64,000 nucleotides of DNA, taken from NCBI RefSeq assembly GCF_964204645.1, contig NC_134027.1:5072485-5136484 (forward strand). Reading direction: 5' to 3'. Made by a program: the position numbers and the translations under genes. Below, one piece after another: positions 12,401 through 63,689 of this stretch. Under the pieces are notes generated by a model. It made no database searches and had not been told where the DNA came from. It saw nothing but the letters and a program-made list of their open reading frames with translations. The stretch comes from Tubulanus polymorphus. Lineage: Eukaryota > Nemertea > Palaeonemertea > Tubulaniformes > Tubulanidae. The number at the start of each line of letters is the position of its first letter. The stretch's first letter is position 1.

Positions 12401-13385
12401 TGTTACGCCCGAGTGTCGTCAGTGTTTGTTCGATGTTTCCAAAATATTCGGAAGCTTTGTTCGCTAAAAGCAGGTTATCGTTTACAACTATGATTTTTAT
12501 CCTTGCGATTACAATGGCAGGAGTTCAAAGAAATGAAATAGATCATATTTGAAAAGAACTAAACTCATTTTTAAATGATTACTCATTTCAGGTTATATCC
12601 ATGACGTACTTCATTCGACTGATCAGCATATTCGTCGCGATTCTACAGAGGTAAACAGCAGTCATGAGTCCGGAAGTGAAAGCGACCTTCCGAGTTCGTG
12701 CGGAAGCTCAGTTGGCGGAAGTGACATCAGCCACGATGACGTCACCAGACCCCATCACAAATCAAACAAATTCCAAGATGGTATCACGGTCGGTTATACG
12801 TACGATGCGTTTTTTATAACCGACGGTCGCTCGAGAGCTCGACGCGCATCACCAGAGAAACCGCGGCAAAGATACACGTGCAACGAGTGCGGCAAAACAT
12901 ACGCCACGTCTTCCAATCTGAGTCGACACAAACAAACTCATCGTAGCCTCGACAGCCAACTTGCCAAAAAGTGCCCGCATTGCGACAAGGTTTACGTCAG
13001 TATGCCTGCCTTATCCATGCACATTCTCACGCACAGCCTCAAACACGAGTGCCCGAAATGCGGCAAATCATTCAGCAGACCTTGGTTACTGCAAGGTCAT
13101 TTGCGCTCTCATACGGGAGAAAAGCCGTTTGGTTGTGCTCACTGCGGTAAAGCCTTCGCAGACCGATCGAATCTACGCGCCCATATGCAGACCCATTCCG
13201 CCTTCAAGCATTACACGTGCAAAAGATGCAACAAATCGTTCGCCTTGAAATCTTATTTGAACAAACATTACGAATCGGCTTGCTTCAAAGATGATGGCCA
13301 AGTGACAGAAAAAGAAATGGATTCAGGTGACAACAAGCTTGATCTCAGTGACGAACGGCCGGACCGTGGTGAAATGAGTGACTGA
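9427..13385 (+). CDS. scrt: Scratch-type C2H2 zinc-finger transcription factor
   Basis: There are two coding exons, 9427-9673 and 12592-13385, joined in phase 1 across a 2.9-kb intron with GTAAGT and TTTCAG sites. They encode about 346 aa. The start is the N-terminal SNAG repressor motif (MPRSFLVKK) of the Snail/Scratch superfamily. A proline/serine-rich linker follows, then the Scratch-specific motif YTYDAFFITDGRSR just before the fingers. Five zinc fingers follow: four C2H2 and a last one ending in Cys (H-x3-AC). The Scratch motif separates it from Snail proteins. Family knowledge: nuclear, E-box-binding repressor in neural precursors and neurons. The following 3.7 kb are AT-rich, with an AATAAA at 17144, so a long 3' UTR is possible but unproven. 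Confidence 0.95.
9674..12591 (+). other. scratch intron 1
   Basis: This 2.9-kb intron has a GTAAGT donor and a TTTCAG acceptor. No further exon, RNA gene or intact repeat was recognised inside it. A weak hairpin sits around 12015-12060. Confidence 0.7.
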
Positions 13386-32964: not shown

Positions 32965-34707
32965 TTACTGAAACGACGCGCGTACGATTCGATCGTTCAA
33001 CGGTTGTGTTGGGCGGAAATTGTCGACCAAGGCTCCATCCTCGCCCACTGCCGGAGTTTCACCTTTGTGAAATGTTCTTAATCGGCGAAATTCCTCCATC
33101 TGAAAATGTGCATATGAAATAGTTACATTATCAGAATGTATACATATATACTTTGGTTCTATAACTGACTTGTCTTGACTTTTTACGATGCCAAAATCTT
33201 ACTAAAAGAGCTTACCTGAGTATGAGATAGCATAAGTGGATATCTAAGCATTATCCATGTGACGTTTTCACTGCATGGAGGGATTGTCAATGAGCCGGTA
33301 TATGTCCAGAAGTCTCGCAACATCGGATCTGAAAAATATGAAAATAACATTTCCGTGAAATAACATTTTCATTTCAGTTTCTTATCTTCATCTATCATTT
33401 CATTCGATTGATATATCGACTTACCCGGTAACAGACAATTTGGATTGAAGGCTGTGCTGATTGTTTTCTGTCGCCCCTAAAACGTACGATCGTGCATCTT
33501 TAAGGATTTTTTTTTCAAAAAGTATGAACAAAATAAAACCCTATATATAGTGTTAGGAATTGCTTGGATCAAATGAAGTCAAGATTTTGATATGAATGTA
33601 AGTATTACAGGCTAGTGTATGAATATTTCAGTGGATAAGTAGTGAATGCTATGAAGGATGCCAGGTGAAATTGATTTATCGGTTGACTAGCAGCTGTCGT
33701 CAGAATGAGCTACAATATATGTTTGTCTTCATCAGTTTATCGCTCGCGGAGCAAAATCCTTGTCGTTATTGGCTACTAGTTTGTTTTCTCTTTTTACCTT
33801 ATGTTGAATATCTTCTAGGTTTTCTGTAATGACCTTTAAGCCTTCGTGTTCACGACCCACCTTAATTGTATCAAAATATGTCATATATTTGTGATGCAGA
33901 TGTACTAACTTCAATAAACGTGTTTTAAACGTATTGAAACATAACGTGTGTTTGATTTACCTGAATAAATATGGCAACTATGGTGACCCCATCTGGTTTC
34001 CCAAGGGCATCTTCAAGGGAGTGATACAATGTTGTGTTGTAATGAATGAGATGCAACTAAAATCATACAGAATTTCATATCAATGACCGTCTTCAAAAGT
34101 CTAAGTTAATGGATTTTTCAGCAATAAGGATATTTGATTGACATCACCTCCATAGGAAACGCTTTACAATTCACGGTATGTTCCGATCCTCTGTTATTTT
34201 CACGGCCCCAATGAAACCGAAATTCAGCCAATTCATATTCGTGATTCGGTGACAAAGGTCCACCAGACAATACTGCAAAATACATCAATCTGAATGTTGG
34301 AAATCATTTCTTTTTACATTACTTATCCATTCAATCACATTGCACTCACTAGACTTGGGAACGAGATCGGCTCTGTAACCGGAGTCGCCTGAAATAGAAA
34401 ACACAATTTTGATTACATGTTTACTGTATGCGGCGGATTCATATTCTGCCACAAGACCACGCCTTATCTTTCAATTTCTTCTGGATTATTAATAGATGCC
34501 TTTCAAACTCACCTGGCTTGTAACGCAAGTATACGACCAATGTATGGCCGTTATTACACATATCCGTTTCTCTACACAGGACGTAGGTAAAGACGAGGGG
34601 ACTCTCGGTAAGATTCGGGTCATATTCAGCAGTTCGAGAATTCAAATTTATTGGTGATTGATAATCACCATTCGCTTCAGGAAATGTTATTCCCCATTCC
34701 ATTGCAC
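32965..34707 (-). CDS. CA8: Carbonic-anhydrase-related protein 8 (CARP VIII), 5' end uncertain
   Basis: Eight minus-strand coding exons, in order: 34707-34513, 34388-34350, 34272-34148, 34056-33961, 33860-33798, 33476-33425, 33328-33216, 33099-32965. They join in frame to about 271 aa and match vertebrate CA8 throughout, including [22 protein letters not shown] and the C-terminal [10 protein letters not shown]. The first zinc-ligand histidine of active alpha-CAs is arginine here (RFHWG instead of HFHWG), as in other CA8 proteins, so it should lack CO2 hydration activity. In vertebrates CA8 binds the IP3 receptor in the cytosol. The acidic N-terminal exon of vertebrates was not found. Translation could start at the ATG at 34703-34701 (MEWG), fed by a 5' UTR exon upstream. 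Confidence 0.93.
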
Positions 34708-34833
34708 CTGAATTAAAAAATGTAGATTCCAAGGATTTGATCTTCCCTAATTTGTGATTACACAGAGTTTTTAGTAGTCGAATAAAACACTCTAATCAGT
34801 GTAAACAGTAGATGAATTAAGAAGTATCATAAA

Positions 34834-39860: not shown

Positions 39861-42440
39861 CAAGAATGAATAGATTGATCGGTATATAATGGAAATGATG
39901 CAGCCTGCCTACTCGACGATATCGACTAACGCCCTATATTGGAAACTTACCAAAGGCTCCCGGAGATATTTTAAGACCGACATTGCTCGCTAAAAATAAT
40001 AAAATCGCTGCTTCCTTAAATATCCTCGACGTATTTAAAGTCGTTAAATGTATATGAGGAACAAGATAAACTAAGATTTATAGATCATTTACAATTTAAT
40101 CTTTTTGACACCATGGACACTGACGTTTTATACATGTTTATAAGTACATGTACTTTACAAACATTTTCTTTCTGGTTTTTCAACGAAAATTAAAACAATG
40201 AACGTATAGAGAAAAAATGTGTGTACATCATGTTCGATTATTGTGTGTGAATGTTTATCGCTCTTGACGTCGGTAGCCAAATGATTTATACATCAAATAC
40301 ATATCCAAGATTAAAGATATAATAAATAACCATTAACAACAAAAATCCACGAGTTTCCAAAAGAGCATGGCAACTATTCATACAAAAACAACGCAATTTT
40401 ATAATATTGCTGGCAATTTAGGCAGACTTAAGTCGGCTAGCGGTGCTACTAACGACAACAGCGACGTAGTTCGTGAAATCATCTAGACGTATTTTGAAAT
40501 TTAAAAAAAAGATAACGCAAGTTACGAGCAAGTAATAAATACTTGTAAATTTGGTCGTTATTTGAGTTTGATGGATCCGTATCGTTTTTTTTTTCAAAAA
40601 GAATATTTTCTGAAACTGATTTTACTGGATTGAAACTTTCCTTCAATCCTAATCCAGAACCTAAACAAAATCTCCATAAGTGTGGGCATTTGATAACATA
40701 ATTTTCATAACCGATATTATGATGGTAATAACAATAATAATTAATGATTGATAATAATAATTCATATTATATTCACATGATACAATGTTCAAGAATGTTC
40801 TTATCATTTTATGCTTTTTACAACACAATTTCCTTTAAAATATCAAGAATAATTTACAGCATCATATTTTACAAGTGACTTTTTTTTTCGTTTACGTCAC
40901 AGAAAGGACTAAAAATGTACATGCATTAAATAATATGGCATCCAGATCTACAGATGGCACACCACACTCACCACAACATTATATACACAAACGGTTTGTC
41001 ATCTTTTTTAAAATACGTTTGATTCACTACAGTTCATATTCATTATTCCAGTTACCGGGTATATACGGATTTTCTTGGAATTCATCCCATCGCTAAAGTA
41101 TCTACACCATGAAATTGGATAATACAAAACTTTGACAAATTAATTCTAGTAGTTAAGAAAATCGCACGGGTGATATCGTAAACTAACTTGATGACATGAT
41201 ATTTCCATCATCAATTCTCTGTAACAAAATACAAAGATATTCGGGTAAATACACAAAGATTGGGATTTAATGATTCATGAAACAGTACAAAAAGAAATAT
41301 ATTTATACATACTTTTTATACATATCTTATTCAACTCATAGTTTATTCAAAGTAGAACATGGTCTAACAACTTAAAGTGTACTTGTAAATTTTGCAATTC
41401 GGATATCGCATTTTCGAAAAAAACAACAATAATCCTAGAGGACTTAGGTATGGATTATTTGATCAAGAAAAAGCAAAACAAACAGACAAAAGAATATAAC
41501 AAATGTATACAATGAAAATAAGATGAAAAACTTAATCTAATTTTGTTGAGTACAGTAGCACCAACTCCTTACGTGAATGAAAAAATTGCTGATAAAATAA
41601 GCAACAAGAAACAACAAATTCTTCAACGGGTGGATGAGTCATGAGCAATATTAAAAGCTTTCATAATTTCTAATTAATTGGGCAAATTGTCAATTGTACA
41701 TACGTAACTCTCATCGACAATACATTCGCCTGCCCATTCAATAATAAAACTACCACAAATCCGAAGATTGATCTCCTTTTAAGTACACAATAGAGAAAAA
41801 ATATGATCACACGGATTAGTTCAGTCACTTGTGACAAGTGTAATCAATATTAACAAAAATATGTATTGTATGATACCAATGCATTCCACCACAACTCCAT
41901 TCAGCAACTGTAAAGTTTGAATGCCTTCGTGAACAAGACAAATTTTTCTAAGTGCTGCACCGAGTAATGCATTTCATGTTATGTATTACATATCCATATC
42001 GTAAGAAGATGTCCAGTCAGGAATACAGCTCTCGACTTTTAGACAAATAACTTTCAATTATTCCATGATTTGTAATCATCGTTCCAAGCGCCATGTCCAA
42101 AGAGTGTTAGGATTGACGAATCCGTAACGTAAGATCTATCTATAATAGAGCTATAATGTCTCAGTTTAAAGTTAGCACATTTTCAGTTTACACACAACAA
42201 GATGCGACTGATGATAAATCTCATGTTAGTCAGTCGGGTTAGCTTTCCTCAGAACTTTTTTTTGAAAGACTGCGCACAAATTAAAAACACGCATGACGCA
42301 CACAGATAAATTAGTCTTTAATCTCACACACATATATACACACACGAACGCAAACGATCAAGTTTATGTTATTTCCTATGTAGTGCAAACTCGGACTGTG
42401 TTCATAGCGTTAAATCATTCTGCTTGTAGTAATAATCACT

Positions 42441-45400
42441 TCACTGATAATGTGAGCCGCTCGAAAAAAACGGAAAGGCACCAAACTGACTGTTAATCGG
42501 TGTCTTCGGCGATGCGCATATATAGTTCAAATCAAAGTCATCAGATTGCGGATGAGTGCGATTTAATGTCGGTTCCGACGCACTGCGATGGATTTTCGGT
42601 AACGAACGCAACAAATTCTCAAGTGAAGCCAAAATCTGAAAACCACATGAAGCGAGTATTAGAAAATGCATCAATTGAAAGATTTATATGAGCTTGATCT
42701 TGATGCTCAATAGACAAAAAAGCAAAGAAACTCACTTGTTGAAATAATGGCCGTTCATCGCGTAGGAATTTAATACAATCTTGCATCAAACGTTTGAACG
42801 CTTTCGGTGAGTCAGATCGACATAGCTGTACATCAGGCCTCAAAAATCCTTTACCAACCATGAATAATATCTGGTGAATAAAACATTGAATCCAAATATC
42901 TTTCAGTCTCTCTAGAACGTAACGCAAATCCATGATTGTTCAAAATACTTACCTGGTCTTTGTTGTTTATGTGTGAGTAAGGTAATTGTCCAGTCATAAG
43001 TTCATACATTACAATTCCAAAAGCGTAAACATCTGATTGGAATGTGTATGGATTCTCTTCTTTCATACGGATCACTTCGGGAGCCTGAAATTCATACCAA
43101 TTTTCATCCAGTATCCAATTTGAAACTAATTAAATTGTCTAACTCTGGATGAAATATCTGACAATTGACATATCCGAGTTCATCAACCCTTTCAGTAAGT
43201 CTACACTTTTTTTCAATTTTCAAAATATCACCAGCACTTCTGTATATCAACTAGTCAGCAATGGAAGGGTTGACATGGTTCCATTGTAAGATGCCCTAAA
43301 GCCCAGAACTTCTTCCAGACAATTGCTTACCATCCATAATATCGATCCAGTAGTTTGCTGAAACTGATGAGACCCACTCCATCGAGTTTTCACAGTTGCC
43401 AGTCCAAAATCACCAATCTTCACAGTCAGATCATCATGCAAAAAGATATCTATTAACACAAGTTAAGGTTAAATTCACGAAATAAATAATCACTTGATTA
43501 TAAAAATAATAAAACAAAGGATACTGTTAGATTTCATGTCTCTGTGTATGATGTTTTTCGCATGAAGATAACTACAAACAGTCAAAGAGAAAGCATTCAA
43601 TTAATCAATTCAGGCATAATATTGAGATGCTAGCGTGTGGGATATTCTTGAAAAAAGCAAAATAACACGTGCACTTACTCCATGCCCTGCGCTGTCTGTC
43701 TTCCTATATCTATTAACTGGATCATTTCAAATTTAGTCTCTTGAACGTGAAGGTGTTTGTATAAACTGGAACCTTCGCACCACTGAGTAACGATTGCCAG
43801 TGCTGGCTGCGATGTCCAGCCCATAAATAATAGAATATTTACATGTCGTGTTTTTCTGAAAAGATATGAAGGCGATGCATCATATACTGATAATACTTTC
43901 GCTGTTCTGCTGAACGTTTAGTCAAAGGTTATTCATAAAAGGTTCCTGCACTAAATAACCTTCCAAATTCCATTACTTTCCATGTCCTTTCTTCTAATCC
44001 CAATTATTCTTGCTATTTCCTGATATTAACTCTCAAATACCATGACTTCCCACAATTCTAAGGAATTCTAGACAATTCGAACTCTTCATTGACTTGAGCA
44101 CTCAAAGGCTGAAATTCCCTGACCTTCTAACACCTCAGAAAACGCTTTTTAAATTACGTGGCTTCCCGGGTTTTCACTGATTGCAGGAACCACGTTATAG
44201 GAAATTTACCGTAAAACTGCTACTTCATTCTTAAACGCCTGCATCTGCGCTTCAGTCGGTTCAACTACATTCAATCGTTTCACAGCAACTTGACCATGCC
44301 AGTGACCTCTGTATACAGTTCCAAACGATCCTGATCCTATTCGGTGGCCGATCTGGATTTCAGTTGTCGGTATTTCCCAATCTTCATTCGAATCTCGACG
44401 TGGAAGCTGTGGAAAACAAATCGAAGAAATTGCATCCGAAGTTATCCAGTCCAATATCTCCGTAAATTCAGAATAATCATCGAATCGTACCTTTTTCCTG
44501 TGTTCGGATTCTGCAGATCTAGACCTAGTCCGTATTGTAGGCTGAGCTAACTTTGTAGGACTAGCACCACTTCCTGTGATTAATGACGTCGCTATATTTT
44601 GACCTGGAAAACAGAAAAGATATGTTAGCTCATTGTTAAAATCTTAAGAGAATTTACTACCGCAATGAACACGTAAAGATTTGAAAAATCAAAACCACAG
44701 GACCCAGTTCCACAACTGCAGTCAATGTTGAATGCAATGTCATTGAAAATAGAGTTAAGATGACACACAATATAGGAACCGAATCCTGAATTTCAATGGA
44801 CTATGGAATATAATAAGTCAGGCTATAAACACTTTAAAAGAGTGGATATTTTCACGCATTGCCATCAATTTACTGTTATTTCATGCTGAAACTAACGGAG
44901 ATAAAGCGTTTAGTGGAATTTGAATATCAAACAGATGGAAATCATACATCATTACAAATAACCATGTACAAGTAGTAAGAAGACATGCTGTTGTGTGCCT
45001 GTGCATATTAGATTTGTCGAGGGGTATTAGCAGAAAGCATCATAAATAAAACAGTGGTACCATAGCCCTTCTTCAGGGATATATTTCTTCTTTCATTTGA
45101 GTACACTACAGTATTCATTCGACTTTAATGTTTATGAGATTATTACATTTTTTCGCTGTGCGACAAGTTGACGGATCCAGTGAAATATAACCACAGATTG
45201 ATCATCATATACTAAAGCCCATTCTATATAGCGGTAGATAGCGGCCGAGGGTTTGTTTGAAAGCATTAAAAATCATGGTCTACATTTACTAGCAGGGGAA
45301 GAGTGTAAGATAGAGAAAGACACAAAGGTATAATAGCTGTTAATCAAATTGTTAGCTGCAGAAATACTAATAATAATCATACAAATAATATCTAAATAAT

Positions 45401-48400
45401 GATAACAGTCAGAATAATAATGATAGATTTAGTAATTGATACTAGTAATAGTAGTAATAGTAGTAGTAAGTAGTAGTAGTAGTAGTAGTTGTAGTAGTAG
45501 TAGTAGTAGTTAGCGATTCGCTCATTGAAGCTACCTTTATGAATAGTGGCATAATAGTGTTTTTGAGTCAGTTTAGGGCTTTCACAGCGCTTTATATCGG
45601 CTGTAGTCCGGTGGTTGAACATCAGGTCTGTAATTCAATAACAAACAACAACGACAGTCAGACAGAGATGAAAGTGCGATCACAAATAAATGCACACCAG
45701 TTAACAGCAGTAGGGAAACATCCGGATACAACGACCATAACTTACTAAGTACTAAGGATGGGAGCAAACATTTAAAATGTTAATCCCGATAGTGATGACC
45801 AAGGGTAAAACCAAAAATTTTACTCATAATATCATTACATGTAATGACACACAAACTAAGTCCTTGGTCAGCGTTTTGAATTATAACTACAATTTTCAGA
45901 AGCCAGGAGCCAGTAATGAATAAACATTGTTCAGTAAAATGGAGCAAAGTATCTTGTGAGCTCCTTCGTCAGATGAATCTTATACATACACGCATGTGCA
46001 TATATGCATTTATGTACAATATGAAATCAAAAGATTCTGACCTTCGGAGAAGAACGCCAATGTGGTAAACCGTAAATAACAAACACCACTTTTACCGATG
46101 CCATATAGGAGAAAACTAGTAGACATAATACACATAGAACTCACCTGCACTACTGGCACTGGTCGACGGGAACTTCCGTGTGACTTCCTGTAAAATAAAA
46201 TTTCACAAGGGTAGCTGGCATTTATAGTCTAACTGTATGAAAACATCTAATATAAATTTCAAATTATGATTATGTTAATGTTATCGAAACTCATGCACAT
46301 AACTGATTGAGATCAGGTAAATATATTCAAAATATATATAAGTATTGATAATACAAGTAAAATATATACGTATAAAAAGTACTGATGATGATTGGTAAAA
46401 TTAGGTACTTACCCAGGGAAAGAGAGAAAATTATAGCAAAACCTTAAGATAAGACGTGCTAAGAATAAAATGTGTCAAGAATAAAATGAGAAAGTACCCG
46501 TGAAAAAGCTGAATAAGGAATGTAGTAATGAAGATGACAATGAAAGAATACGGTCATTCAAAACCGAAGACAATTCCATTGTGAATTGAGTAGAGGATCA
46601 CGTCCATCAGGAAGGCAGAGTGCTACCATCACATTCTGAACTAGCGGAGACAGGTGATCGGTTAACGTGTTTTGAGGAATGATGTTGAACGAAATGCAGG
46701 GAATAGATAGAAACCAGCAGAAGTAAACTGCGGATACATGTAAGAGAACCGTACATGTAACGAAACACTCAGCCAGGTACTGTACATGTACATCACACAA
46801 ACTTCACTACTATAATTCACACAGTCACAGCGAATCTGAACTTACAAAATATGATAAGTCGCAATCATTATCACAAACGTAACAATACCTAACCATTGCG
46901 TATGTACCTGTATGGCGAGTCTTTTTCTGATTTCCTTAAGGTTATAAATGGATAAATGGCATCGAGAAAATATGATGAAAATCCATCACCTCGTTCTATA
47001 TGTTGAAATGAATGATGTGATAAACACCGAAACCGGGGCCTTGACCTTCAAGATATGCAACCGAAATACTGAATACCAGTAATTGATAACAAGTCATGAT
47101 TGAAGCTATTGTCTAACCTTGCCCTGGTCAAGGTAGATCGTCAAACCGGGAGCCTGCGGAAGAGACACAGGCGGTGTCACTGGTGCCACAAAGGGATGAT
47201 GACGATCCTGAAATGATGTCTCGTAAAAATAACTTTGAAAAGGGGGAAAATCCTGTCAAACTGTCAATAGCAGATACAACAAATCAGTTAATTCCGTAGA
47301 CATGTTGAATGTTGAAAATCCGTAATGTCCATTCACTTAGAAACATATGAACAACATTTAAGTTCACTTGGTGAAAATCAAACATGTTTTCTATATCAAT
47401 TGATTACATAAATAGAAAAAAATATATGCTGAACCCATTCCCAATAAGCAAAACAGACAACGATCAAGGCGGGTACTGGAATATAAGAATATCAATGAGA
47501 AAAATACTTCCCAAAATAGCGACTACCGTATTTATACTGAAATTCCTTATCAAATATCCAGAGAGGGTAAAATCAATAGCATAAAAGAAATTGTTCTTCC
47601 AGAGTTGGTTACACGTTTAGGATGAAGAAATAATCAAGAGGCGACAGCACAGTAACAACTAGGTCACCACATGTTCTAGAATTAGACATGAGAATTTTCG
47701 AAAACAGACTTCGACGTGACCAAAAGCAGGTAAAGTATACCTAATCCTGTTTCCGATTTAAGAAAAAAATTCCCCACGAACCAAAGGAAACTCAAAAATA
47801 ACGCTATAATCTATGATGGAAAGAAAACCACAGGAGCCTCTATCCCTGACATAAACACTGGCGTAGAAAATGGCAACTACCGGAATGTAGTATTTAAAAG
47901 TAGCCGGCGAATATGTGAGGGATACACCGTGACAAGGATATACACAAGACCGGCCCTACATTACCTCCTGTTGTTCATAGGACTCGGTGAATGATGAAGA
48001 GTCATGGTTAGGAAGCAAATTTCGCACATTGGGTGCAGAGGTCGATCGCTCGGGTTTGCGCCCGGCATCGGGATCGAGACTACTGTAAAATAACACATAC
48101 GTAAAAAAACTACCATTCAAAGCGCAGTTACACACACGAAGGTGGCGGCGCATTTCTCCACTCAGATATAGATAATAGAGATAATGACACGTGCTGCAAT
48201 AGGAAAACATATAAATAATAATGATAAATATAAAACAACGTAACATAGTTGTCGCCCTTGCTTTGACGCAGATGATTAGCACATGAGAAAGGCAACTTGC
48301 GGTGTGAGTTGGTTTTGTACGCTTCTTATCTATGATTTAGAAAATTCAAAACATTCTCTCAGTAAATGATGCGCATTATTATCATTAGATTTAATTGATT

Positions 48401-51400
48401 TGAATACGAAATGAAGGGCTACTCAAAATGCAGGCTGCTTTTTTACATGTGACAGACGTATGCGCGCGTGCAGGGCGAACAGTATATAATGACATACCTC
48501 CACCATACTACCATCGCCTGCATTGACTAGATTCAGGCAAACATTAGGAGCTGAAGTGGATCGCTCTCTATGGGCAAGAGGAGGCGCACGTGATCGTGAA
48601 ACCGTTTGAGGCCTATTGTAGAACATCGATAGGGTATTAGGATGACCACTGCCCGCTGCTAACCAGCTATATTAAAGTAAAAGAAACGATAGAAGAAAAA
48701 TGAAAAACAAGTAAAAACATACACCACCGACACGGGTCGTAATTCGAACAAAAAAGTTTTGAGCGGAGACGGTAAAATGTAATCATAAAATCAACTGTTC
48801 AGCCACCTTGGATTACTGTGCGTATCGGAAATGCCGACTTATTTCTCGCAATTTCTAGCAGAGAAGAAAAACAAACGACTACACAATTCAACTGCAATGA
48901 AAACATTATTATATTCAGCATAAACTATCATAGATGTCCGTCGCGTGAATGAAGCAATCTTCGAATAATTATTGAATCGAAAGATATTGACATTTCAGTC
49001 CCAAATATTTCTAAAACTTTCAAAAATCTTCACTCTAAAGCAGAAAATCATCGATGATAGTGTAAATAAAGATTACAAAGCAGTCGTCATCGTGATTTAT
49101 ACCAAAAAACCTCTAAAATCGAAATATGTCTTTGCCAATTTCAGAAAATGTCCTCCAAAAAACATCATAATAATGACTACGGCAAGATTCATAACCATAT
49201 TCACAATCAATATAACAACTGCTCTGTTTCAGTGGAAATTAGTCAGCATTACCAAACACACACGTAATTCATATAAAATACAACCTAAAAATAATCCTAT
49301 ATATAAATATATATATATATACATATATAAATTACATATATACATATATATATATATATATATAAATATAAATAATACAAGAGCGTTTGACGAATACACA
49401 AGGTTTGGACAGATTTCGGGGGGATAACTTTGAATGTTAAAACGCATAACATTACCAGGTGTTGACACATATTTCATCCTCTCTGCTACTTATAGTGCTA
49501 TCGCTTTCTCTGGAGATTTTGAAGTAAAAGTCACCTCTGTTTGATATAGAGAAAAAAGAAAGGCAGCGTGAAGATGTTTTATCACAGAAAGTTTAAGACG
49601 GGAAGATGAAGGATTGAAATGAGATTTTTAATGATGTACCGGTATCCAATATGTATCTTGCACATTTTCTAAGTATGTTATTAGCCTCTCTAAATAGTCT
49701 TTCAAGGTGCTATTTAGCTTTTTAGAAATGTTGGAAAAAGGTCTTAAGTTAGGAGAAGCAAATATTGTGTAGTTTCCCCCAAAGATTTACAGTGAAATTT
49801 TTTCCAGTACTTGTGGCAAGAATAGTTTGAAATGATATCAAAAAGCATTCTGAAATTCAGGAGATGACAAGTTGTACAATTTCTATGTGGTTTTTCATAT
49901 TCCTTTTACTGTTTGATTAAAATTTTGAATGTAATTGCAGTGAAAATTTATTGGTTTTATTAGGTTTTTGTTCTAAATCAAGGATGAAGAAATAAAACAT
50001 TATACAATCAGGTCAAAACATACTTTGCGCACAGTTAGCATATTATATTCACAAGTTTTTACGATTGCCTTCCATCATGTCACGAAGATCAACATCGTGA
50101 CCTTTCACTTTCCTTGATTACTAACAGATTCTATTCGTACAACATGTTACATGTTACGAGACTAGGGTCAAATTGCATTTGATAAAATAAAGGTGACTGA
50201 AACCATTTATGTAAATATACATGTAGTATGTATCCAGACATGCTTCAAATTGACATGGATGGACATATTGATGATACAACTTATACAAATGATCAGGCCA
50301 GCACCAATCACAGGGTACCATTGATCAAACATATGCACAGGGACGGATATAGGGCCTGATTCAAGAAGGGGTGCACCCCAAAATAGGGCATAAAAACCCA
50401 TTGGAAAACATTATCTGGATCCACCCCTATTGCAGGCAGCCTAATAGGTGCATATCAGATTGGTACTGGCCTGAGTATGAAAACAGGGTGTTACACAACA
50501 GCTGAGTTCATCAGGTTTGGATTCTGATGGCAAAAATAAGAGATTATCTATAAAAGGAATAGAACATTGCGCATTATTTCAAGAGCTGAAAATAATTTCA
50601 AAGGTTAAAAGCATATATATCCTTAGGAATAACTTCAAACAATTTTCATGGAGCAAATTCGAAACTATTGTCACTTCATAGTGGTTTTTGGATGTTCAAC
50701 ATTTTCAAAGTTATTTCCAAGGATGACATTTTGTACTAAATAAGAAATGAAGAGGACAGATTTTGTCTACCTAGGGCTAACAGCAGTAACCACAGATTTG
50801 GTTCGCTAGCTACAGAATTTCCACATACACAGCCCAAAAGGAAATCAATCCAATTTCTACAAGGACTGAATGAAATCAACTTGAACAAATGGTATCGAAA
50901 ACTATCTTTGCATTGAATTATACATGAAATGTACTGTGTGTATGGTTTTTGTCGAAACAAAAGAAAAATTATATAAATGATAATAAAAACAATCATGGAT
51001 TGATGTCTGGAATAGAAATGGACGTAATCAGGCTGAAACAGAAAAGATATTCCACATCATGCTGGATATCCAACAAAAAACTGAGATCAAACTAAAAATA
51101 TTTTCATCGCAATCTTCTTTCGATAAAAAGAAATATATATTACCCTGAAAAAGATATAACAGCAGTATATCGAACTTTCGAATCAGATGGAATATTTTTT
51201 GATTAAATGAACTTAGCTAAGACGTTAAATATACCTCTTAGTCTTAAGAATAAGATTTTAAGCTGCATCTGGCACGAGATCTTTTTCTTTAAAAGGAAAC
51301 TTAATACAATTAATGCACATATTATGGTCCTAACGAGGAACATTTGAATGCAAATTGCAGCATAACCACGCACACACACACACGCACACACATAGTAAAG

Positions 51401-54345
51401 GATCAGGATGGCCCTTTTGAAACTAGAATGTAGCAATAACATGTAGACTTATTTTCTAAATATCAGTTGTAAGTTTGGGGATCAAACTTCAATCATGGAG
51501 GTTAAAACTAGTCGCGTATATCCAAATCTGAGTAAAAATAAGTTGAACATGAGCTGTTAATATTCAGCGGCTATACACTCTAGTTTCTAAAATGATAAAT
51601 CATCACATCACTCACATTTGCCATTTTGAGCTGTGTGAAAATTAGAAAACAAATACTGAGAATTCAAATTGCGCATCGAACAAATGCGTAAAACCCTCAA
51701 AAACTCTAACTAGCCACTTATAATAAAAATAGAATCTTTTTGGAAACCAAAATATGCTGCATTAAGATCGGGCCTCGTGTTTTATTGCTACCAATTTCTA
51801 AGAATACTCATACAAAGAGAAAAACTTTGAATCAATTCAGGTATTTCGATGTAAATGAATACCCGCAATCATTGACATTAATCAAATAGACATGCAATAT
51901 ATGAGACAAAAAGATGATAGAAATCAAAGCGAAAATTTAAGAAAGCATCGACCATCACTGAAACCACAGCAGTCTAAACAAGTATATCATTCTTCCCCTC
52001 AGTTCATTTCAAAATTTTGTCTTAAGTTGAGGAAACGCCATTGATTAAAACATGCTCATTGCTTGATTCTGAGTTATAGATACAAGCGGAAAAGAAAGTA
52101 TAAGAGAGGTGAATAGAATACGTACTGTTTAGCCGTTTCCCGAACATCGTGGTCGTAATACAACATGTCATCATCTTCTGCGGATTGCTGACACAATGTT
52201 GGCACGTCATCGGTACAACGTTGATGAAATCGGTAGCCACAAGTCTGACACCGAAATCCTTGGAACAATAGTTTCCTACAACTGTCACAGAATGCAAGAG
52301 TAAAGAATGTCTTCCGCACCTGAAATCGAAAGTAGAAAATAAGAAATAAACAAGCTACGCCTAATCAACGGTTAGACTGTCAAACCTCAAAATCAATGTC
52401 TTGCTGCCTGAATAGTTTCAATACAACATTTACCTATCGAGCATAACTTACAAAATTATGAGATATACTCGTAGGGGGTGGTAGGTTGCCCTTTAATTCC
52501 ACCATCAATTCTTCACCGGCAAGCGCAGACGTGTCAATGTCCCAAGGTATAATTGTTCTACAATGAAATATATACAGACATGAACGGAAATGATTTCCCT
52601 TATTCCGTATTTCATTTCGTTGAGCGTACCTCGTAGAACTGCGGATCACGATACACATTTCAATCGATAACTCTCGAATTCTCAAAGGTTTTTGTAACGC
52701 ATCGGCTAAAGTAGTGCCAGGCTTCACAGGTACCTGCATTTTAAAAGATGACAACGTTTCAAAAGCAATCGCAGATAAAAACCGTACAAGTTGAATACGC
52801 TATTTTGCGTCAACACATATAGGCCTACCGTTGTTTTCTGTTGATTTGGTAGGAATGCTTTTATAGTAGCTTTCATCGGCGAGCGGTGCTGCATTTGAGG
52901 ACTGTTCATTACGTTATCTCTCATAACCATATTTGTCAGATTACTTGAACTGTTATTCTCAGTTAACACACCACCACCTGTATCGGGATTGTCTTTTCCG
53001 TACACGGCTTCAGAATTACGTAGATCTATATGTCCAGTTGCTCTGTAATTGTCCTCACTGTAATCGTAGTCATCCGAGTCAGAACTCATAGAATCAACAT
53101 TGATTAGATCTAAAAGTTTTTGTTCTTTCTCTTGTAACTCGTGAATTTTGTTTGTAAGTCCTTCATATTCCTGGAATACAGAAATAGATTTCGATGAATT
53201 ATGAAATGTCGCGTTGTCAGAGCTATCACAAGGTATAAAGAAACGACACCCTTATTAAGATAATATTTCAAGATGTAGTGAAGGCTCCCAAAAAACATGA
53301 AACAAAGCAAAATGATGATATACACGTAAGTATAAATCATTCAGTCAAATTAAGGATCATTCACCCATAATCTCACAAGCCTTCTTGCCCTTAAGGTGAA
53401 TGTGGAAGAATACACTTACAAGCGTAAGAAAGTTGTATAAAATTTACAAAATTACCTATAACCAAAATTGAACGAGCCTCATCCCCTTAGAACTACACGT
53501 AGGCTAGGTGAATAGTCTGATTCAGACAGGTATTAAGTAATCATTTATACTTACTGAACAGAAACAAACACAATTTTACTGTCGTGTTATTACTAACAAC
53601 ACAAAAAAGATTTTTAACAGTAAAAAATCGAAAATCCTAGCATCAAATTGAATCACAAAAGCCCATTTCAACGTATTCTATCAAGCGTCGTAAAGAAGAT
53701 GATTCTATCAAAAAACATAAATCTTTGTAACTGTTCGATGTATTGAGGATTCTAAATGAATTCAAATCAATACAAACCTGTATGTACATAGACGGAGGAT
53801 GCTGATGGTTGCCAAATCTAGCGATGAGTGCTTCAAGATTTTCTTTCGTCAATTTGATTACATTTCGTAAATTTTTCAACTGAAAATAAGAAATTTTATT
53901 TAGATTAGATTATGAAATTGTTATATTGACAGTTTGAGAAAATTGAGTTTTACATCAAATTCAAAACGCATAGGCCCTAGGTCTTAAAATTTTAACTTTT
54001 AAGGCTTCCTTTTGAGACGGACTATCACCCTGAATTAGAAATCTTCATTCTTTTTACGATGTATATCTAAACATAATACGATGGAAAGTAGCAAATGTCA
54101 GATGGCAATGTCAAACTGTCTGTCAACTCAGTGGATTGCTCCCAAAAAAGAGGATTCTTGCAAAATGAGCTGCAGTTAATTACAAAATGCACTATCTTGT
54201 CACTATCAATGAGCCTGCAAATGAATTCGAGTAGTTGCTCTAATACCTCGTCTTCGATTGCACCGTTGTCACACGTATCTGGGCCGTTTTCCTGAGCACC
54301 TATAGTGAATTTTGGAATACCGTTCATCGTCACTTGAGCCGCCAT
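42441..54345 (-). CDS. RAF: RAF serine/threonine kinase, B-Raf type
   Basis: Minus-strand exons: 54345-54247, 53879-53778, 53170-52829, 52733-52630, 52557-52452, 52319-52126, then 48666-48498 or 48082-47965, then 47207-47118, 46187-46145, 44603-44491, 44406-44210, 43855-43679, 43571-43525, 43449-43331, 43084-42953, 42870-42736, 42635-42441. The product is 787 or 770 aa. Order: B-Raf-specific region ([17 protein letters not shown]), Ras-binding domain ([10 protein letters not shown]), C1 zinc finger (C-x2-C-x13-C-x2-C-x4-H), CR2 14-3-3 motif RSTSAP, then kinase: GSGSFGTVY loop, catalytic [18 protein letters not shown] segment, APE and a C-terminal 14-3-3 site RSASEP. The N-region reads SNEDWEIP, acidic as in B-Raf rather than SSYY. 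It is expected to act below Ras, phosphorylating MEK. CR2 is encoded by two alternative exons. Confidence 0.96.
45442..45511. repeat. (TAG)n microsatellite in Raf intron
   Basis: This is an imperfect (TAG)n tract inside the Raf intron between exons 46187-46145 and 44603-44491. It makes minus-strand poly-Tyr and poly-Leu open frames that are not coding. Confidence 0.9.
47965..48082 (-). other. Raf alternative CR2 exon, distal version
   Basis: This 118-base exon is bounded by TTTTACAG and GAG|GTAATG. Its first base completes a codon (phase 2 entry) and it ends in phase 0, exactly like the exon at 48498-48666. It encodes 39 full codons, including [18 protein letters not shown], which carries the 14-3-3-binding RSTSAP. 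Read in phase 0, as it would be after the upstream version, its first codon is TAG. Confidence 0.85.
48498..48666 (-). other. Raf alternative CR2 exon, proximal version
   Basis: This 169-base exon is bounded by TTTAATATAG and GAG|GTATGT. It enters in phase 2 and ends in phase 0. It encodes 56 full codons: a Ser/Arg/Pro-rich lead of about 34 residues not present in the distal version, then [17 protein letters not shown]. The codons for the shared RSTSAPNV differ at many third positions from those of the distal exon, so the two copies are old and their protein sequence has been kept. Confidence 0.85.
49300..49370. repeat. TA-rich low-complexity tract in Raf intron
   Basis: This is an interrupted (TA)n and ATATAAA tract in the 3.5-kb intron between the C1-domain exon and the first CR2 exon. 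It contributes to a spurious plus-strand open frame. Confidence 0.85.
50338..50432. repeat. Short MITE-like element in Raf intron
   Basis: The segment begins CAGGGACGGATATAGGG and ends with TCTGGATCCACCCCTATTG, whose reverse complement has the same GGGGTGGATCCAGA character. It resembles the termini seen at 37.5-38.0 kb, suggesting one family of short non-autonomous elements. No target duplication was confirmed. Confidence 0.4.
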
Positions 54346-55103
54346 ATTCAGTTCCTATGTAATACAGTTCAATGGTTTATTCTAGATAAAAGTGGGATCT
54401 AGGACTCGGACAATACGCGCACTGAATGGGAACCGGACCATCGCTGTGCAGCGGCACCGCCGTCGAAGATTTGTACTACGGCATTGGTCAGTCAAAGCAT
54501 ACAGGCTACAGAGCATATTTTGATTTCCACCTGCAAGGGTGACTGTCTTTATGGAAAATAAAACCTGTTTGTCATCCATGCTGCCGGCAGTCTAATCGAG
54601 GTTCGAGGAACAAGCCCGAAGCGGACAAGATAGTCCGAGTCGCGCCCGGCGTATCATTAAAGAACATTCGTCATCCCTATAGCGTAGGGATGACGAGAAT
54701 TTTCTTTAATCATTCAACCTGTTTCCTTAGCCGGACTAATGTTTGGATGGCGTGGAGTGATTGTTACCGTTGTGTCGTCTTAGCACAATGCATTATAGTC
54801 TTCTGGCCTAATGAAATATTCATCACTCATGTAAAAGTCTTCCTACTTTGTTGATCTAATAAACACGATACCTCACAATATGCGGAATTTACACCTGAAG
54901 TAACGATGCCATTTGTATACTGGGACCCGACACAGATGCGAGTCATTGATTGTGGTTCCGATTTCTGTAGGGTCAGTGGAACACCAAGCTTATTTAATAA
55001 GTGAACCAAAGTGTACCAAAGGAAATCACATGGAACTCAAAATTAATCAAATCCTTTTTTGGAATGTAAGCGAAAATCCTGCGGTTTAAAGTGAAAGCGT
55101 GCG
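54346..55103. promoter_or_regulatory. Divergent intergenic region between Raf and a PAN-like gene
   Basis: This 758-bp interval lies between the divergent start codons of Raf (-) and a PAN-like gene (+). It is the richest non-coding GC/CpG region in this part of the window, as expected for a housekeeping Raf promoter. It includes a strong hairpin at 54656-54710. No TATA box could be assigned to either gene. Confidence 0.5.
54656..54710. repeat. Strong hairpin with inverted CGTCA/TGACG half-sites
   Basis: TCGTCATCCCTA (54668-54679) and TAGGGATGACGA (54685-54696) form a perfect 12-bp stem with a 5-base loop. An outer pair, ATTAAAGAA (54656-54664) and TTCTTTAAT (54702-54710), is also exact. The stem contains two inverted CGTCA/TGACG motifs, which are half-sites for CREB/ATF factors. 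Confidence 0.8.
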
Positions 55104-55900
55104 ATGTTAAGCGTGATTATATTAACTGTTATTGGGGTATATGTCCCTCTAATTGAATCATTGGATGGTGAGTATACACCAGCGACTGAGATTATTTGTA
55201 GCTTTCATTAAAATCTTCCTATTCCAATAAAATTTCCTATTCTATTAGTTCCAAAATATCTGGTATATCTATTTAGCGCGTCATTGTTCGGGTACGATGG
55301 TGTGGTCGATAATCCCTGCCCGAGGTCTTGACGACAACAACGATCGAGTAAAATGGTTTGCTTCCTTCGACGATTGCAAAAGGTTTTGCGAACATGAAAC
55401 TGATTTCACGTGTAGATCTTTTGAATACGAGGTTAAAAAGGTGAAAAGATGTCTCCTGAGCCGACATAGTCGCTGGACCAAACCTGAACAATATACTTTA
55501 GAAGAAGCGTCTTGGGTTTACGCTGATTGGCAATGCTCCGAAGGTAACATCATACCAATTTTATCCACCTGTCCGAATCTACTGATATGCAATGTTTCGT
55601 AATTTTCTTTTTGTAGATAAACGTTCCATTGGTCGGAAATACAAGAAATTCAAACACGCATCCACACCGTCAAATGAGAAAGCGTACATCTCGACGAAAA
55701 TGGTTGTGTCAGGGAAAGGATGCGCTTTTATCTGCGCACAGACTGCCGACTGTTTACTCTTCGCTATCGAATCATTTGCCGGAATCCACCAGTATCGGTG
55801 CACTACATTTAACTCCCACACCCTCTGTAAAAACTGCGGACAACCACGAATACGCGCGAATACAGATGTCTACATCGTCAACCAAACGCCTTCTGCGTAA
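55104..55900 (+). CDS. Secreted protein with PAN/apple-like domains
   Basis: Three exons, 55104-55167, 55277-55543 and 55617-55900, join in phase 1 to 204 aa. Residues 1 to about 19 form a hydrophobic signal peptide. Exon 2 encodes one cysteine-rich PAN-like module (FDDCKRFCEHETDFTCRSF, then a later KRCLLS). Exon 3 encodes a second, more divergent one (GKGCAFICAQTADCLLFAI). Each module sits in one exon with symmetric phase 1 introns, the usual arrangement for shuffled extracellular domains. It is probably secreted; the ligand is unknown. It resembles the 31.5-kb gene only in general cysteine pattern. Confidence 0.8.

Positions 55901-57092: not shown

Positions 57093-63689
<6,597 letters not shown>

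Follow-up and report, generated by a model that had tools for sequence, protein, structure and literature searches.

A 64,000-nucleotide stretch of the genome of the palaeonemertean Tubulanus polymorphus (assembly GCF_964204645.1, contig NC_134027.1, positions 5,072,485 to 5,136,484; hereafter the window, numbered from its first letter) carries on its minus strand a gene that is, judged by its sequence, a complete B-type Raf kinase. Its CR2 exon exists as a tandem duplicate, here called A and B, and the gene probably yields two full-length kinases that contain either the one copy or the other. The serine of CR2 is a central inhibitory Raf switch in the RAS-ERK pathway, and the choice between A and B would change the surroundings of this inhibitory 14-3-3 site. 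Both the splicing of A and B and its effect are predicted from the DNA.

The first line of evidence is the exon layout (Table 1). An earlier note on this DNA had placed two exons encoding the peptide ERSTSAPNV, and both were found exactly where it put them, within AG/GT borders, between exon E6, which carries the C1 domain, and the hinge exon D. The lengths of A and B are both 1 mod 3, both exons are entered in phase 2 and left in phase 0, and either of them alone joins E6 to D in frame, as the note had said. Spliced with the 15 other exons of the gene model, the form with A stays open for 771 amino acids and the form with B for 754, both ending at a common natural stop; exon D joins the next known exon in frame via a GC donor, unless a small exon was missed between them. 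When A and B are both included, the frame stops right behind A (372 amino acids), and when neither is used it stops at 325 amino acids. In the spliced gene model, a full-length Raf frame requires exactly one of the two exons. The earlier note had regarded the double-inclusion stop as a built-in device. The stop itself is present, but the word "built-in" claims too much, because any duplicated exon with phases 2 and 0, and hence a length that is not a multiple of three, shifts the frame on double inclusion or skipping. The TAG with which B opens on double inclusion is therefore a by-product of the phases and not a separate device. A and B are neighbouring homologous exons that share their entry and exit phases, the arrangement that marks mutually exclusive tandem-duplicated exons.

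Table 1. Exons of the Tubulanus polymorphus Raf gene, in positions of the window
Feature	Position	Strand	Remarks
Exon A, CR2 exon, 169 nt	48666-48498	minus	AG/GT borders; first H common with the C1 exon
Exon B, alternative CR2 exon, 118 nt	48082-47965	minus	AG/GT borders
Possible longer exon B	48083-48193	minus	alternative 3' splice site ttttcctattgcag/CACGTG, phase unchanged
Exon E6, upstream constitutive, C1 domain	52319-52126	minus	ends CA at 52126 (phase 2)
Exon D, downstream constitutive, hinge	47207-47123	minus	starts at 47207
Exons E1-E5: start, B-Raf-specific region, Ras-binding domain	54345-52452 (54345-54247, 53879-53778, 53170-52829, 52733-52630, 52557-52452)	minus	
Exons K0-K7: kinase domain and C-terminal site HRSASEP	42441-44603	minus	

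The same frame effects allow a different reading, in which A and B are alternative without being strictly exclusive, and double inclusion or skipping serves deliberately to make a kinase-less, dominant-negative Raf comparable to mammalian DA-Raf, a protein without a kinase domain. Both off-frame products end past the Ras-binding domain (RBD) and the C1 domain and thus keep these two parts, as does DA-Raf, a splice form of A-Raf that competes with Raf for Ras through its RBD and CRD and blocks the ERK pathway (PMC12540644). However, any exon duplication that shifts the frame gives such products. A stop codon far upstream of the last exon junction is an established trigger of mRNA decay; the stops of both products are in such a position, and decay of these RNAs is therefore expected. 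Unlike DA-Raf, the off-frame products here are predicted by-products that are probably degraded, and we consider a purposeful truncated Raf highly improbable. For the exclusive use of A or B, in turn, nonsense-mediated decay would act as a backup.

The second line of evidence is the pattern of divergence between the two exons. Six of the nine codons of the core ERSTSAPNV differ between A and B, and all six differences are synonymous, with no amino-acid change, which bears out the note's remark that synonymous sites differ under an unchanged motif. When six substitutions were placed at random in the core, only synonymous changes resulted in 58 of 400,000 trials. This all-synonymous divergence points to an old duplication maintained by selection. 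Base composition also sets the exons apart from their surroundings: GC content is 51% in A, versus a maximum of 47% in 1296 overlapping windows of the same length, and 53% in B, versus a maximum of 48% in 1338 such windows, all taken from four introns (E6-A, A-B, B-D and D-K0). A codon-usage score was trained on 714 codons from the other Raf exons, with stop-free overlapping intron windows as the reference. Of 256 intron windows, 0 scored as high as A, and of 768, 7 scored as high as B; after removal of the shared core, A was matched by 0 of 465. Taken together, these results show exon A to be firmly coding and the core of B to be firmly under constraint.

Two other origins of exon B were rejected. 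Chance is set aside by nine identical residues, the same phases and the six synonymous changes. An assembly duplicate is set aside by three results: no direct repeat of at least 14 bases was reported in 47208-49100, an 801-base region matches a single place in the genome, and the peptide of exon B matches itself alone. A retrocopy of the spliced E6-A junction, which would have served as proof of splicing, had 0 exact matches in the genome. In a six-frame scan of 42000-55500 for R[SFYLTQA]x[ST]xP, the seven matches were A, B, the C-terminal HRSASEP and four that contain stops.

Splice signals were scored with matrices for which the gene itself supplied 12 donors and 13 acceptors. These matrices are small and unstable; the leave-one-out scores of constitutive sites spread widely (acceptors from -8.6 to 13.9, donors from -0.9 to 11.0), and the ranks of the A and B sites are therefore rough. 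Within 52120-47150, which holds 302 GT and 210 AG dinucleotides, the small matrices place the donor of A at rank 1/302 and its acceptor at 22/210, and the acceptor of B at 8/210. All four sites of A and B fall inside the wide range of the gene's constitutive sites. With such unstable matrices, the idea of a single clearly weak splice site in A and another in B was abandoned.

Upstream of B, an acceptor at 48193 (rank 9/210) could lengthen the exon in frame. Exon B might be part of a transcript driven by a separate promoter, or of a longer exon starting at 48193, rather than of a classical exclusive pair; the frame of B is open from 48336, and the acceptor at 48193 is fair and in phase. Yet the extension is intron-like, scoring -0.38 per codon versus -0.02 for B, and the acceptor of B itself is slightly ahead (7.13 versus 6.77). 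Either of these readings of exon B is very unlikely.

Several observations weigh against a mutually exclusive pair. The homology of A and B spans only some 9-10 codons. The donor of B is modest (rank 35/302, again with small matrices), and without the shared core the codon-usage score of B was reached by 103 of 1349 intron windows, so that the remainder of B is only moderately coding-like. Double inclusion could keep the frame through the phase-0 acceptors 48324, 48321 and 48048, the last of which lies within B, or through the phase-2 A donors 48625, 48481 and 48454, all of them poor by eye. No obvious device for exclusion emerged either. The A-B intron, at 415 nt, exceeds the length threshold for steric exclusion, which argues against simple steric exclusion, and by eye neither site flanking this intron is U12-type. 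No inverted repeat of at least 14 bases was reported and there was no clear RNA pairing; one of six intron segment pairs was low, in which the segment before A pairs with the 3' portion of the intron between B and D (z -3.15, 0/60 shuffles). Likewise, no clear splicing-control motif appeared in a shuffle test of 10 patterns in 6 regions. The excesses that were seen are nominal, coming from 60 tests in one genome, and are not relied on: YGCY in the B-D intron (11 versus 5.1 expected, 1/300 shuffles), TGTTTG/TGTGTG in the D-K0 intron (8 versus 3.0, 5/300) and, across 52125-47208, TGTTTG/TGTGTG (13 versus 6.3, 0/300), TGTGT (17 versus 9.8, 8/300) and GTGTG (11 versus 4.6, 3/300, with 7 of the 11 in one run at 51391-51375).

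Some of these points would suit a gene whose functional CR2 exon is A, with B as a duplicate that fell silent recently or is spliced in very rarely. The rank of the B donor and the score of B without its core fit such a pseudo-exon, as does the ancestral-like character of A described below. Against it, all nine core residues of B are kept despite six synonymous changes, its phases are intact, its frame is open and its acceptor is fair, and its donor, at 3.2, scores much like the donors of E2 and K6, two constitutive exons (3.3 each). We regard a silenced B as unlikely, and the use of one exon or the other as the preferred reading.

The identity of the gene as a B-type Raf, proposed in the earlier note, is upheld by database comparison. 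Human BRAF is the top PDB match of both isoforms (E 1.7e-233 for A, 2.7e-233 for B), and the Pfam families PF02196 (Ras-binding), PF00130 (C1) and PF07714 (kinase) score above cut-off in isoform A. The B-Raf-specific N-terminal region is present, residues 23-91 pairing with BRAF chain positions 63-131. By sequence, A and B each hold the CR2 14-3-3 site RxxSxP as RSTSAP, and K7 holds the C-terminal site HRSASEP. Searched alone against PDB, the A-D region gave three weak unrelated matches and the B-D region none. Exon D carries TPPVSLP, which by eye resembles TPPASLP of the BRAF T401 region; the phmmer alignment with BRAF does not pair the two. The LIN-45 equivalent of this region is part of a phospho-degron (PMC5042004).

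The genome (268 Mb, 77 contigs) was also searched with 157 kinase-domain residues. Among the 65 matches listed, the gene's own exons showed 91-96% identity per exon, and the others only 23-59%. No second Raf gene was detected among the 150 of 155 candidates that were scored, which leaves this gene as the only Raf detected in the genome. RBD-like exons occur on two other contigs (loci L002 and L003), by eye with no kinase in the 3.1-kb loci; by resemblance they may belong to RGS12/14-type genes. Within the Raf gene itself, the intron in the kinase catalytic loop (43450-43524, minus strand) has the U12-type donor gtatccttt and, near its end, the branch-like ccttaac; this animal thus seems to keep minor-class introns.

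What the choice between A and B might change can be read from the residues around the serine. The form RxRxxS is the one preferred by AKT and SGK. Exon A keeps both RxRxxS and RxxSxP, with Arg at positions -5 and -3 of the serine, and these arginines are shared by human BRAF (RDRSSSAPNV) and RAF1 (RQRSTSTPNV). In exon B, the Arg at -3 is kept, Pro replaces the Arg at -5, and basic residues stand at -6 and -7. The earlier note had described the lead of B as short and acidic; its 11 residues include two acidic and two basic ones and are charge-neutral, and the acidic part is the tail. Downstream of the serine, by eye, the A flank NVCLNLV is closer to NVHINTI of BRAF than is the B flank NVRNLLP. 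Both exons keep RSTSAP, that is, the 14-3-3 binding form RXXpSXP known from BRAF S365 (PMC5042004).

Since A shares the Arg at -5 with BRAF and RAF1 and its flank resembles that of BRAF, A would be the ancestral-like copy and B a site that other kinases would likely recognize, or that would be phosphorylated less frequently, although we are less sure of this than of the exon choice itself. Form A would then act as an ancestral-like brake that AKT/SGK-type kinases can phosphorylate through RxRxxS. Form B, which keeps the 14-3-3 form but lacks the Arg at -5 and has a different flank, may be a brake site poorly phosphorylated by AKT/SGK-type kinases, being served by other kinases or phosphorylated more rarely. 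The autoinhibition of Raf-B might thereby be weaker or differently controlled. A more specific version, which we consider rather unlikely, is that the splice switch picks the kinase that sets the brake, with A set by AKT/SGK-type kinases and B uncoupled from them yet still able to bind 14-3-3.

The mouse B-raf gene offers an analogy that makes splice tuning of inhibition plausible. In that gene, exons 8b and 9b shift autoinhibition in opposite directions, and basal phosphorylation of S365 is higher in the 8b than in the 9b isoform, which establishes that splice tuning of this site exists (PMC3008692). As predicted for T. polymorphus, alternative splicing in mammalian B-raf acts in the hinge beside the CR2 serine (PMC3008692). 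The architecture is nevertheless different: 8b and 9b are optional exons added next to an unchanged CR2 exon, whereas here the CR2 exon itself is doubled and one copy is required, so that the nemertean gene lacks the optional extra exon of the 8b/9b type. According to the same study, 8b and 9b are not conserved in the fly and worm raf genes (PMC3008692).

A parallel in exon structure is FYN, whose mutually exclusive duplicated exons are homologues that swap a linker by the kinase domain (PMC9741552). In FYN the two exons span the SH2-kinase linker together with a portion of the kinase domain, the isoforms differ in partner binding and tissue, and a title cited in that survey states that splicing modulates Fyn autoinhibition (PMC9741552). 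Unlike the gene described here, FYN is a tyrosine kinase, and its exon pair concerns the SH2-kinase linker and ATP site, without a 14-3-3 site. More generally, tandem duplicated or mutually exclusive exons are adjacent homologues of which a single copy is used, as proposed for A and B (PMC9741552; PMC7954323). The word "raf" occurs 0 times in the texts of these two surveys, their supplementary gene lists lying outside those texts. The worm Raf gene lin-45 appears among the C. elegans Ras-pathway genes tabulated in PMC3771449, where alternative exons are indicated for some entries. Among the matches listed from open-licence papers, none described a Raf whose CR2 exon is duplicated, in agreement with the earlier note, which knew of no such case. 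Tandem exons used exclusively are already known, and so is the tuning of Raf autoinhibition by splicing, while a Raf with a doubled CR2 exon was not found described.

Other features of the window and the genome were noted in passing. On the plus strand, 12579-13385 is an open frame with five C2H2 zinc fingers that resembles Scratch/Snail, and 57521-58609 is a long Lys/Arg/Ser-rich open frame that by eye probably encodes a nuclear splicing-type protein. On the minus strand, the open frames at 34121-34795 look by eye like alpha carbonic anhydrase. TTAGGG arrays are present in the genome, and its 268 Mb contain no exact copy of the canonical SL1 leader. A nematode or a TTAGG arthropod is unlikely on these grounds; a COX1 search gave no match.

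The motif around the CR2 serine is mutated in some tumours and, for RAF1, in Noonan syndrome (PMC5042004). A natural gene with two selected versions of this switch would offer a ready test of how the residues near the serine set the strength of the brake and the kinase that controls it. If, in addition, the splice switch did pick the kinase that sets the brake, the splicing of one Raf gene would do part of what several Raf paralogues do in vertebrates.

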